64,000 nt of DNA from Cellulomonas sp. NS3 (lineage in GTDB: Bacteria; Actinomycetota; Actinomycetes; Actinomycetales; Cellulomonadaceae), in NCBI RefSeq assembly GCF_024757985.1, contig NZ_CP103289.1, positions 1,674,001-1,738,000 of the forward strand. The letters are read 5' to 3'. The position numbers were made by a program, and so were the translations under genes. The notes under the pieces were generated by a model. The model worked only from the letters and a program-made list of their open reading frames with translations. It was not told the DNA's origin and searched no databases. Shown here in pieces: positions 37,423 to 41,744 of this stretch; the first letter of the stretch is position 1, and the number at the start of each line of letters is the position of its first letter.

Positions 37423-39768
37423 TCAGCGCGGTGCGGGCGCCGCCGCCGCGGCGCGTGGTGCCGGGACGCCGTCCCGCCGCGCCGGTGCCACAGGTGCGCG
37501 CGTGCGGGTGATCTCCGCGATGACCGCCGGGATGCCCGCGGCGGGCCCGGGACGCGCGAGGCCGAACCCCTGCGCGGCGTAGCAGCCCATCTCCGAGAGC
37601 ATCGCGAACGTCGCGTCGTCCTCGACACCCTCCGCGACGACCGACAGCCCGAGGTGCCGCGCGAGCTCGATCGTGGACCGGACGATCGCCTCGCTGGCAC
37701 GGTCCTGCGCGATGCCGCCCACGAACGCGCGGTCGAGCTTGAGCCGGCCGACCGGCAGCCGGTGCAGGTACGCGAGCGAGCTGTGGCCCGTGCCGTAGTC
37801 GTCGACCGCGAGCTCGACACCGAGCCGCTCCAGCGCGTCCAGCGCCTCGAGCGCGCGCTCCGGGTCGCTCATCGCACTGCTCTCCGTGATCTCGAGCTCG
37901 AGCGCGGACGCCGGCAGCCCGTGGCGCGCGAGCGCGGCGCGCACGTCGGAGACGATCTCGGGGTCGAGCAGGTTCTGCGCCGCCAGGTTGACCGCCACCG
38001 CGATGTCGAGGCCGTCGGCGCGCCAGCCCGCGACCGCGCGCAGCGCCTGGTCGAGGACGTCGCGCGTGAGCGGACCGATCACGCCCGTGCGCTCCGCGGT
38101 GGGGATGAACAGGTTCGGGGTGAGCAGGCCGTGCTCGGGGTGCTGCCAGCGCACGAGCGCCTCGACGGCGAGGACGCGCCCGGTGCTGACCTCGACGATC
38201 GGCTGGTAGTGCAGCACGAGCTCGCCGCGCGAGATGGCGCCGAGCAGCGTGCCGCCCAGCGCGGGGGCGAGGGTGCTGGCCGAGCTCATCGAGGCGTCGT
38301 AGCGCGCAGGCAGGCGCGAGCCGCGCTTCGCGGTCGAGAGCGCGACGTCGCCGCGGTGCAGCAGGTCCAGCGGGTCCGTGCCGTCGTCGGGCGCGACCAC
38401 GAGCCCGACGCTCACCTGGACCCGCACCTCGAGGTCGTCGAGCCGGACGGGACGGGCGAGCGCGTCGTGCACCGACTGCGCCAGGTTCATCGCCGTGCCG
38501 CTCCCGGGCACGTCGCGGAACAGGATCGCGAACTCGTCGCCGCCCGGCCGGGCCACCAGGCCGGCGTGGCCCGCGACGGACCGCAGCCGCTCGCCGATGC
38601 GGATCAGGACCTCGTCGCCGGTGCGGTGCCCGAACGTCTCGTTGATCTCGCTGAAGCGGTCGACGTCGACCAGCACGAGCGCGACGCGGGCCCGCGGTGC
38701 CGCGAGGGCGTCCCGGATCTCCCGGACGAGCAGCCGCCGGTTCGCCAGGCCGGTCACGATGTCGGTGTCGGCGGCGCCGCGCAGGCTCTGCGCCTGCTCC
38801 TCGAGCCACCGGGTCATGCGCGCCATCCGGATGAGCGAGAGCACCGTCAGGGCGACGGCCGCGACCGCGGCGGCCCACACGTCGACGGTGCCGCCGAGCA
38901 CGAGCTGCACCACGAGCACCGTGGGCGCCATGAACACGGCGGGGCCGACGAGCATGAGCCGTTGGCGGCCCTTGCGCTGCTCGGGCTCGACCGCGCGCTC
39001 GGACATCAGGCGCATGCCGGGGTCGAGCGCGGCGGCACCGAACAGCGCGTAGGAGACGAGCCAGCCCGCGTCGAGCAGCAGCACGTGCTCCTCGAGCGCC
39101 GGCACGAGCGCCGAGAGCTGGAACAGCGCGTCGACCGCCATGAGCGACCCCGTCGCGCTCACGAGCAGGACCGACGCGGTCGACCGGGCCCCGGGCGCCG
39201 TCAGGAGCCGGACGAGGAGCCCGATCAGGATGATGTCGACGATCGGGTACGCCGCTCCGACGACGGTGCTCGCGAGGTCCAGCTCGGGGTCGCGCAGCGC
39301 GGGCGCGACGAGGGTGACCCAGGCGACCAGCCCGAGCCCGATGGACACGAGCAGGCTGTCGATCGCCGCGGTCGGGTGCCGCTCGCTGCCGCGGGCCCGC
39401 GCCAGCATGAGCAGCCCCGCACCGAGGAACGGGTACGCGGCGAGGTAGACGACGTCCGCGGCCGAGGGGTACGGGTCGGTCTCGAGCACGAGCTCGAACC
39501 AGGACCACAGGAAGTCCCCGACCGTCATGAGCGCGATGCCCACGGTCAGCAGGTACCAGGGGAGCCGGGCCGCCGGTGCGTTGCGGCTGATCCCGACGAG
39601 CATGACCGCGACGGAGAGGAAGCCGACGGACACGTAGACGATGCCGCGCGGGAACCCGAGGGGGAGCAGCAGGTGCAGCACGGCGACCGCGGAGGAGGCC
39701 GCGAGCCAGCGGGACCACGCGCTCCTCACCCAGATCACGCACCAATCGCATCGACGACGAGGCCCCAC
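37423..39768 (-). CDS. Membrane-anchored GGDEF-EAL cyclic-di-GMP protein
   Basis: A protein of about 781 residues. Residues ~20-315 form about nine membrane helices. A GGDEF domain follows with the intact motif GGDEF at 409-413, then an EAL domain with EAL at 536-538 (VEALVRWQHP), VNLAAQNL, LEITESS and the loop DDYGTGHSSL. Both domains look catalytic, so the protein could make and/or break cyclic-di-GMP. The start is uncertain: GTG 39768, 39738 and 39729 are in frame and none has a good site. No partner gene. Confidence 0.9.
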   Translation of the reverse strand: MGPRRRCDWCVIWVRSAWSRWLAASSAVAVLHLLLPLGFPRGIVYVSVGFLSVAVMLVGISRNAPAARLPWYLLTVGIALMTVGDFLWSWFELVLETDPYPSAADVVYLAAYPFLGAGLLMLARARGSERHPTAAIDSLLVSIGLGLVAWVTLVAPALRDPELDLASTVVGAAYPIVDIILIGLLVRLLTAPGARSTASVLLVSATGSLMAVDALFQLSALVPALEEHVLLLDAGWLVSYALFGAAALDPGMRLMSERAVEPEQRKGRQRLMLVGPAVFMAPTVLVVQLVLGGTVDVWAAAVAAVALTVLSLIRMARMTRWLEEQAQSLRGAADTDIVTGLANRRLLVREIRDALAAPRARVALVLVDVDRFSEINETFGHRTGDEVLIRIGERLRSVAGHAGLVARPGGDEFAILFRDVPGSGTAMNLAQSVHDALARPVRLDDLEVRVQVSVGLVVAPDDGTDPLDLLHRGDVALSTAKRGSRLPARYDASMSSASTLAPALGGTLLGAISRGELVLHYQPIVEVSTGRVLAVEALVRWQHPEHGLLTPNLFIPTAERTGVIGPLTRDVLDQALRAVAGWRADGLDIAVAVNLAAQNLLDPEIVSDVRAALARHGLPASALELEITESSAMSDPERALEALDALERLGVELAVDDYGTGHSSLAYLHRLPVGRLKLDRAFVGGIAQDRASEAIVRSTIELARHLGLSVVAEGVEDDATFAMLSEMGCYAAQGFGLARPGPAAGIPAVIAEITRTRAPVAPARRDGVPAPRAAAAAPAPR

Positions 39769-39942
39769 GTCGCCGGGGCACCGACCGCGCGGCGGCCGGA
39801 CCTCGGCGGGTCCTTCGTGGAGGTGATCGGCCGGGGACGGCGGCGTGCGAGGTGTGCGCGGGGTGAAAGGTGCACGTCGGGCCGGTGCGGGCGCCCCGGA
39901 CCCGACCGGGGAGCCCGTGACCGGTGGTGCCGGCGAGGAGCG

Positions 39943-40257
39943 CTAGCCGACGACCTTGAGGCCGACGACGCACCCCACGATCCCGAGCAGCAGGAGGACC
40001 CGCACGAGCGACACCGGCTCGGCACCGGTCGCCATCGCGTAGGCCACGGTCAGCGCCGCGCCGACCCCCACCCACACGGCGTAGGCGGTCCCCGTCGGCA
40101 GCTCGCGCATCGCGTACGCGAGCCCACCCATGCTCAGCACGAGCGCGACGGCGAAGACCACGGTGGGGACCCAGCGGGTGAGCCCCTCCGACCGCCCGAG
40201 CGCGGTCGCCCAGACGGCCTCGAGAACACCGGACAGGACCAGCACGAGCCAGGACAT
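39943..40257 (-). CDS. gdx: SMR guanidinium exporter (Gdx/SugE type)
   Basis: A 104-residue small multidrug resistance protein with four membrane helices. The essential Glu13 in helix 1 lies in SGVLEAVWATALG, with Trp16 conserved as in Gdx/SugE rather than EmrE-type pumps; LPTGTAYAVWVGVGA in helix 3 is also Gdx-like. Gdx proteins export guanidinium in exchange for protons. The assignment is strengthened by a guanidine-III riboswitch right before the ribosome site (GAGGGAG at 40270-40264). ATG 40257. Confidence 0.95.
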   Translation of the reverse strand: MSWLVLVLSGVLEAVWATALGRSEGLTRWVPTVVFAVALVLSMGGLAYAMRELPTGTAYAVWVGVGAALTVAYAMATGAEPVSLVRVLLLLGIVGCVVGLKVVG

Positions 40258-40271
40258 GACGATCTCCCTCG

Positions 40272-40313
40272 GCGCCGTCTTGTCGCACTCCGGGTACGGC
40301 GCACCTCGTCCGG
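40272..40313 (-). ncRNA. Guanidine-III riboswitch (ykkC-III)
   Basis: On the minus strand the leader starts CCGGACGAGGUG (40313-40302) and ends ACAAGACGGCGC (40283-40272). The stem GCGCCGU (40302-40296) pairs with ACGGCGC (40278-40272), and CCGG at 40313-40310 can pair with CCGG at 40293-40290 as the pseudoknot. Sequence and spacing match the known class III guanidine riboswitch almost base for base; the variable part is the short AGUGCG loop. The ribosome site abuts the 3' end, so guanidine binding probably controls translation of gdx. Confidence 0.93.
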
Positions 40314-40380
40314 GAACCCGTGGGGGCCCTGCCTCCAGGGTCGCACGCCCCCGCGTCCCGGCCCAGGAGGGGAGCGGTGA

Positions 40381-40406
40381 GGTCGGTCACCGGGGTCGGT
40401 CACCGG
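40381..40406. repeat. 13-base perfect tandem duplication
   Basis: GGTCGGTCACCGG is repeated exactly, 40381-40393 and 40394-40406, in the 374-base gap between gdx and the SGNH esterase gene. Each unit holds GGTCGGTCACC, so it could be a double regulator site for the esterase; no regulator is known. Confidence 0.6.
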
Positions 40407-40631
40407 GGGCTCGGGGGCGCGCTGCTCCGGCACCGGACGAGGACCGGTCCCTGCGCCGCGCCGCCCACGGGGGCCCGCGCGGAACCGTCGGCGACGCGGC
40501 GCCCACTTAATGGATTCGTCCGCGGGCGCGTCCTGGCGCCGTCCCGCGAGCGCCCGTCAGGCTGCCAGTCCGGCCCGCGCGCTGTCCCCGCGCGTCCCGT
40601 CCCCAGCCCCCTCGAGAGGGAGACCTGCGCC

Positions 40632-41744
40632 ATGACGACGCCGTCCGCACACCCGAACCGCCGCTCCCTGCTCGCCCTCGTCGCGGTCGCCGCGCTGCTC
40701 CTGGCCGGGGTCCTCGCCGCCGCGGCTCCGAGCCGCGCGGCCGCCTCGGCGCCGGTCCGCATCATGGCCCTCGGCGACTCGATCACGGGCTCACCCGGCT
40801 GCTGGCGGGCGCTGCTGTGGCAGAAGCTCCAGAACGGCGGGTACACGGACGTCGACATGGTCGGGACGCTGCCGACGCAGGGCTGCGGCATCGCGCACGA
40901 CGGCGACAACGAGGGCCACGGCGGCCTGCTCGCGACGAACGTCGCCGCGGAGGGCCTCCTCACCGGGTGGCTCGCGCAGACGCGCCCGGACGTCGTCCTC
41001 ATGCACTTCGGCACCAACGACGTGTGGAGCAACCGCTCGACGACCCAGATCCTCGCGGCGTACACGACGCTCGTGCGCCAGATGCGCGCGAGCAACCCGG
41101 CCATGAAGGTGCTCGTGGCGCAGATCATCCCCGTCGCACCCCCGACGTGCGGCGAGTGCGCGCAGCGCACCGTCGCCCTCAACGCCGCGATCCCCGCCTG
41201 GGCCGCCTCGCTCAGCACCAGCGCGTCGCCGATCACCGTCGTCGACCAGTGGACCGGCTGGAACTCTGCGGCGGACACGTCCGACGGGGTGCACCCGAAC
41301 GACGCCGGCATCGTCAAGCTCGCGGACCGGTGGTACCCGGCGCTCGCGGGCGTGCTCGACGGCGTGACCCCGACGCCCACGCCGACCCCGACCCCGACGC
41401 CCACGCCGACCCCGACGCCCACCGCGACCCCGACGCCCACGCCGACCGCCGGCGCCGGCTGCACGGCGGTCTACCGCGTCGCGAACAGCTGGCAGGGCGG
41501 GTTCATCGGCGCGGTCACGGTGACCGCCGGCTCGGCGCCCGTGACCGGCTGGACCGTGACCCTCGCGCTCCCGGACGGCGGGGTCGCGAACGTCTGGGGC
41601 GGCCAGGCGAGCACGGCGGGGACATCGGTGACCGTGCAGAACGCCGCGTGGAACGGCTCGCTCGCCGCGGGCCGCAGCACCGAGCTCGGCTTCCAGGGCA
41701 CCGGCTCCGGTGCGGGTGCGACCGTCAGCTGCTCTGCGCGCTGA
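40632..41744 (+). CDS. Secreted SGNH/CE3-like esterase with CBM2
   Basis: A 370-residue exported carbohydrate esterase. A signal peptide spans about 1-40. The SGNH domain (about 41-238) has nucleophile Ser50 in MALGDSITGS, the Asn block HFGTNDVW, and Asp/His in DGVHPNDAG, matching CE3-like acetyl-xylan esterases. A Pro-Thr linker of about 30 residues (41370-41450) leads to a C-terminal CBM2 (about 275-370; TAVYRVANSWQGGFIGAVTV, then TGWTVTLALP) with bounding Cys and surface Trp for cellulose. ATG 40632. Confidence 0.92.
   Translation: MTTPSAHPNRRSLLALVAVAALLLAGVLAAAAPSRAAASAPVRIMALGDSITGSPGCWRALLWQKLQNGGYTDVDMVGTLPTQGCGIAHDGDNEGHGGLLATNVAAEGLLTGWLAQTRPDVVLMHFGTNDVWSNRSTTQILAAYTTLVRQMRASNPAMKVLVAQIIPVAPPTCGECAQRTVALNAAIPAWAASLSTSASPITVVDQWTGWNSAADTSDGVHPNDAGIVKLADRWYPALAGVLDGVTPTPTPTPTPTPTPTPTPTATPTPTPTAGAGCTAVYRVANSWQGGFIGAVTVTAGSAPVTGWTVTLALPDGGVANVWGGQASTAGTSVTVQNAAWNGSLAAGRSTELGFQGTGSGAGATVSCSAR

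Follow-up and report, generated by a model that had tools for sequence, protein, structure and literature searches.

Guanidinium is a toxic ion, and guanidine riboswitches were the route by which guanidine biology was opened. Guanidine-III riboswitches are described in PMC12186494 and PMC5696562 as ON switches, found mainly in Actinobacteria, that free the ribosome site and stabilise the mRNA, a mechanism that PMC5696562 calls less well established. The closest described RNA is the guanidine-III aptamer of Thermobifida fusca (ykkC-III, RF01763, PDB 5NWQ), the structure of which was solved with guanidine (PMC5696562). In the crystal numbering given there, the pocket bases are C6, G7 and G17, and G9, G10 and U11 form a triplex on C16, C15 and G14. 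The closest protein of known structure is Gdx-Clo (PDB 6WK5), for which PMC9574504 describes a central Glu, a Tyr switch and a hydrogen-bond stack of W16, S42 and W62.

Here we compare these systems with a locus in a 64-kb stretch of actinobacterial DNA, referred to as a whole as the window. Its 42-nt aptamer core was identical at 38 of the 41 positions that could be aligned with the T. fusca RNA as printed in PMC5696562. The differences, one extra base and three substitutions, are located in the loop after the 3′ arm of the pseudoknot. On the numbering of that paper, the window RNA is identical to the T. fusca aptamer at C6, G7 and G17 and at the triplex bases G9, G10 and U11.

A guanidine-III riboswitch ahead of an SMR gene

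We searched both strands of the whole window with cmscan and obtained a match to the Rfam Guanidine-III model (RF01763) at 40332-40269 on the minus strand (64.5 bits, E 5.1e-11). It spans model positions 1-67 of 67, and nothing else in the 64-kb window reached an Rfam gathering cut-off. An earlier note, made from the letters of the sequence, had claimed a 42-base element with a seven-pair stem and a CCGG/CCGG pseudoknot, its 3′ end adjoining the ribosome site of an SMR gene, and had named the Rfam covariance model as a check. The score lies well above the gathering cut-off of 36 bits, and each part of this anatomy was found. The element occupies 40313-40272 on the minus strand; in the Rfam structure line 40302-40296 pairs with 40278-40272, and direct reading pairs 40313-40310 with 40293-40290. 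GGGAG follows at 40268-40264, and then the ATG at 40257. The features are as follows.

40269..40332, minus strand: guanidine-III riboswitch, full Rfam RF01763 extent (cmscan), including a 5′ hairpin outside the 42-nt core
40272..40313, minus strand: 42-nt aptamer core, CCGGACGAGG...ACAAGACGGCGC, from alignment to the T. fusca RNA
40310..40313, minus strand: 5′ arm CCGG of the pseudoknot helix (P1 in the crystal paper), from direct reading and covariation in relatives
40290..40293, minus strand: 3′ arm CCGG of the pseudoknot helix, in the hairpin loop, from direct reading and covariation in relatives
40296..40302, minus strand: 5′ arm GCGCCGU of the seven-pair stem (P2 in the crystal paper), Rfam structure line
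40272..40278, minus strand: 3′ arm ACGGCGC of the seven-pair stem, Rfam structure line
40307..40308, minus strand: C6 and G7, ligand-contacting pocket bases, placed through their identity with the T. fusca aptamer
40297, minus strand: G17, inside the stem 5′ arm, in the crystal numbering
40317..40328, minus strand: short upstream hairpin within the Rfam model, limits approximate, Rfam structure line
40264..40268, minus strand: Shine-Dalgarno-like GGGAG, six bases 5′ of the start codon, direct reading
39943..40257, minus strand: gene for a Gdx-type SMR protein of 104 aa with an ATG start (PF00893; best PDB match 6wk5)
39768-37423, minus strand: GGDEF-EAL protein, next gene behind the exporter, profile match
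40632-41744, plus strand: GDSL lipase with a cellulose-binding domain, divergent gene in front

The GGGAG ribosome site comes directly after the end of the Rfam match and within three bases of the stem 3′ arm, and 11 bases separate the end of the match from the co-oriented ATG. A second genome of the same genus (G002) has an unchanged leader from the short upstream hairpin, itself unchanged, to the ATG, and diverged DNA further upstream.

Upstream of the riboswitch we observed an inverted repeat, CGGTGACCGACCTCACCG (40375-40392, minus strand), which is kept in G002 despite diverged flanks and recurs in part a little further upstream in the window. The genome contains one exact copy and ten further places with two mismatches, and the repeat is a possible operator. 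A scan of 39700-40700 for a sigma-70-like promoter and a terminator found neither.

The genome is a single contig of 4.78 Mb in which we found one guanidine-III match and one SMR gene. Nothing links either neighbour, the GGDEF-EAL protein or the GDSL lipase, to guanidine. The same genome holds one arginase-family gene and, outside the window, two urea-carboxylase-type genes above the curated cut-off (L325 and L326), one of which could be a guanidine carboxylase. No Rfam match was found at the two urea-carboxylase-type loci and the arginase-family locus, with 1,500 bases of flank on each side.

Covariation in relatives

Two genome sets were scanned, 99 genomes (the window's own and relatives) and 296 genomes of the class. 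We analysed 169 distinct guanidine-III loci, the window included, comprising 49 of 51 from the 99-genome scan and 120 at class level, with one duplicate dropped. Two matches of the 99-genome scan (G031 and G037) are outside the 169 loci, and an SMR match is adjacent by coordinates in both. Also outside are the class-level matches below the cut-off in G100, G307, G356 and the second of G297. Matches in G005, G061 and the second of G011 (29.9-32.7 bits, below gathering) were rejected as chance, having no SMR or CBU_0592 frame behind them.

Sequence anchors placed 165 of 166 aptamers, including the window's (L210 was left out), and all four pseudoknot pairs were formed in 159 of the 165. The pair sets were CCGG/CCGG in 128 aptamers, CCCG/CGGG in 17, GCGG/CCGC in 8, TCGG/CCGA in 3, CTGG/CCAG in 2 and CCTG/CAGG in 1, so that five sets besides CCGG/CCGG record compensatory changes in the pseudoknot. 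In a few of the other six aptamers the anchors seem to have been misplaced. At the level of sequence, the window RNA is shown to be a member of the guanidine-III family with a pseudoknot backed by covariation. For the stem, the two inner pairs were fixed by the anchors of the script and carry no evidence; the third-innermost pair was formed in 163 of 165 aptamers and covaries (C-G 139, A-T 23). Outside it, 126 of the 165 aptamers had the fourth pair, 155 the third, 103 the second and 132 the outermost, first one; 59 of 165 had the complete set of seven. Either the outer stem is looser in the relatives than in the window, or register shifts escaped the pairing script.

A Gdx-type protein behind the riboswitch

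The gene behind the riboswitch matched the Pfam SMR family PF00893 at 68.2 bits (cut-off 23.7). Its closest PDB match was 6wk5, identified as Gdx-Clo in PMC9574504 (E 7.4e-19, 71 bits), with EmrE chains near 1e-6. Glu13 and Trp16, which the earlier note had singled out, are both present, and S42, Y59 and W62 accompany them. Of the 141 SMR proteins linked to riboswitches, counted as the first behind each riboswitch, all carry E13, S42, Y59 and W62, and 134 carry W16. The other seven have Met16 (L151, L152, L155, L162, L174, L186 and L187), and their genomes belong to a single family (f35).

The arrangement itself recurs. In the 99 genomes, the window's own included, an SMR gene follows 45 of the 48 above-cut-off matches (43 by profile search, 2 by coordinates). 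For comparison, 20 SMR proteins not adjoining a riboswitch were drawn from the 30 best loci of the 99-genome SMR search, leaving out L046, which has a variant core base. All five residues were present in 15 of these 20, so the residue set marks the Gdx type with or without a riboswitch. The earlier note had held that riboswitch and exporter point to guanidine independently; the riboswitch and the Gdx-type gene were both found, with the caution that the five Gdx residues do not depend on a riboswitch being present. We conclude that the window protein is very probably a guanidinium exporter.

Switching mechanism and alternative explanations

We are highly confident that the locus comprises a guanidine-III riboswitch in a gdx leader, in which guanidinium binding would turn on a dual-topology guanidinium/H+ exporter. 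The riboswitch most likely acts on translation, as an ON switch for this predicted antiporter. Guanidinium that accumulates in the cell would bind the pocket of C6, G7 and G17 in the H-type pseudoknot, and binding would stabilise the pseudoknot and triple helix and make the adjacent ribosome site usable. According to the literature, the mRNA would also be protected on binding. The SMR protein would then be made and export guanidinium in exchange for protons. Since the genome has only one SMR gene, a dual-topology homodimer is expected. For the window system, we infer ligand binding, the direction of switching and transport.

The riboswitch could be genuine and the SMR protein a promiscuous drug or quaternary-ammonium exporter (Qac, EmrE-like), merely induced by guanidine. 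Most of the 21 NCBIfam models that matched are of Qac or multidrug type, and the protein, although it has the SMR domain and the Gdx residues, does not earn the NCBI name SugE because its score of 85.5 bits is below the curated equivalog cut-off of 126. However, SugE is by far the best-scoring of these models, with 45.6 bits for the next; the closest PDB match is Gdx-Clo; and the W16, S42 and W62 stack described for Gdx-Clo in PMC9574504 is present. We regard a promiscuous exporter as very unlikely.

A decayed or non-switching relic, no longer regulating the gene, would agree with our folding calculation, which gave no support for exposure of the ribosome site when the aptamer was imposed. In the window, the ribosome site was unpaired at 0.39 in the free RNA and 0.28 with the aptamer imposed, in a nested fold that cannot represent the pseudoknot. 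Of 152 SMR or CBU_0592 loci, 120 could be scored, and in these nested folds accessibility shifted by more than 0.05 upwards in 36 and downwards in 57. Because the nested model cannot hold the pseudoknot, this is weak evidence. Against a relic stand a core almost identical to the crystallised aptamer and a leader that has stayed unchanged in G002 while the DNA further upstream diverged, and we find a relic barely credible. The ON-switch reading is kept because of the riboswitch family and not because of the folding calculation, and the anatomy, in which the stem 3′ arm is followed so closely by the ribosome site, fits it.

Genes behind guanidine-III riboswitches elsewhere

Following the riboswitch through relatives gave a census of the genes behind guanidine-III. 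By profile search, 141 of the 169 loci (window included) have an SMR gene and 11 a CBU_0592-family gene (L014, L062, L063, L140, L159, L189, L230, L231, L234, L235 and L236). The other 17 loci were assigned by reading. In six the riboswitch is followed by an arginase-family gene (PF00491 at 256 bits in the one examined by profile), in three by a metallo-beta-lactamase-fold gene and in two by an isochorismatase-like gene, with a single representative checked for each of these. Two others have a CBU_0592-like gene whose frame is broken, one has a frame that by eye we take to be OsmC-like, and the remaining three are the chance matches. The metallo-beta-lactamase-fold proteins, of 292-304 aa, stand directly behind a riboswitch in three genomes of two families (L204, L228 and L229), and we know of no guanidine role for them. 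At L223 and L224 the riboswitch directly precedes an isochorismatase-family hydrolase; the best NCBIfam neighbour of the L224 protein is biuret amidohydrolase, far below cut-off.

CBU_0592-family genes behind the riboswitch were found in Microbispora, Kitasatospora, Catellatospora, Nocardioides, Microbacterium and other genera, all actinobacterial. In two of the 11 cases from the profile search (G113 and G252) the riboswitch scored just below the cut-off, at 34.7 and 34.8 bits. Eight of the 13 genomes with this pairing in the first census have no PF00893 match (G019, G040, G057, G106, G180, G208, G214 and G314), G019 and G057 counting as one event because their riboswitch and gene sequences are identical; the other five have one match each (G113, G181, G233, G252 and G303). 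Overall, PF00893 is unmatched in 31 of the 99 and 104 of the 296 genomes.

We then used an alignment of ten riboswitch-linked members as a query and analysed the best 80 of 142 relatives (L237-L316). An above-cut-off guanidine-III riboswitch was found at 46 of these best 80 loci, a proportion that overstates the family-wide rate because the query was built from riboswitch-linked members. Each of the 46 riboswitches ends 5 to 40 bases before the CBU_0592 match. A simple-pattern core, for which there is no chance control, occurs in eight more of the best 80, and guanidine-III was the only class of guanidine riboswitch reported for these 80. The two sets overlap, six of the 13 first-census loci matching five of the 80. 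With the NCBIfam CBU_0592 model, riboswitch linkage was found in 3 of 39 matching genomes among the 99 and in 9 of 35 among the 296.

The protein has about 80 residues and three helices, predicted with high confidence; the best structure model reached pLDDT 92.9 and pTM 0.79, and the other four models had pLDDT values of 64.8 to 88.0. N36, E59 and W62 are present in 46 of 46 linked members. All 34 members without an Rfam match have N36, and 33 of them have E59 and W62; the sequence of the remaining one is interrupted before these two positions. These residues are thus a feature of the family and not a mark of riboswitch linkage. The conserved LLEGVW motif of helix 3 is reminiscent of LEAVW, which lies close to the N terminus in Gdx. 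The family alignment had no match among PDB sequences at E up to 1, and a fold search gave 0 matches at E up to 0.001; the top match, a SWEET sugar transporter, had an E value of only 0.87, and we therefore make no fold assignment. On the grounds of riboswitch regulation and missing SMR genes, we propose tentatively, and with somewhat less than even confidence, that CBU_0592 proteins are a second guanidinium exporter family of the Actinomycetota, unrelated in sequence, that is controlled by guanidine-III and replaces Gdx where SMR genes are lacking.

Comparison with known systems

We confirm that riboswitch and probable exporter form an ordinary textbook arrangement of an already-known type, and the interest of the window finding lies mainly in the CBU_0592 side lead: the census includes this unstudied membrane family, which is directly testable as a guanidinium exporter. 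Going by family names, the window gene would be a multidrug or quaternary-ammonium exporter; the riboswitch context fixes its likely role as guanidinium export. Sequence similarity to the guanidinium/H+ antiporter Gdx-Clo (SMR family, PDB 6WK5) is only moderate at 71 bits, over an alignment that covers residues 1-102 of 104. The features described for Gdx-Clo are found in the window protein, namely E13, W16, S42, Y59, W62 and a G64-x-G66 fulcrum. The window and T. fusca aptamers share the H-type pseudoknot, the seven-pair stem, the pocket bases and the triplex bases.
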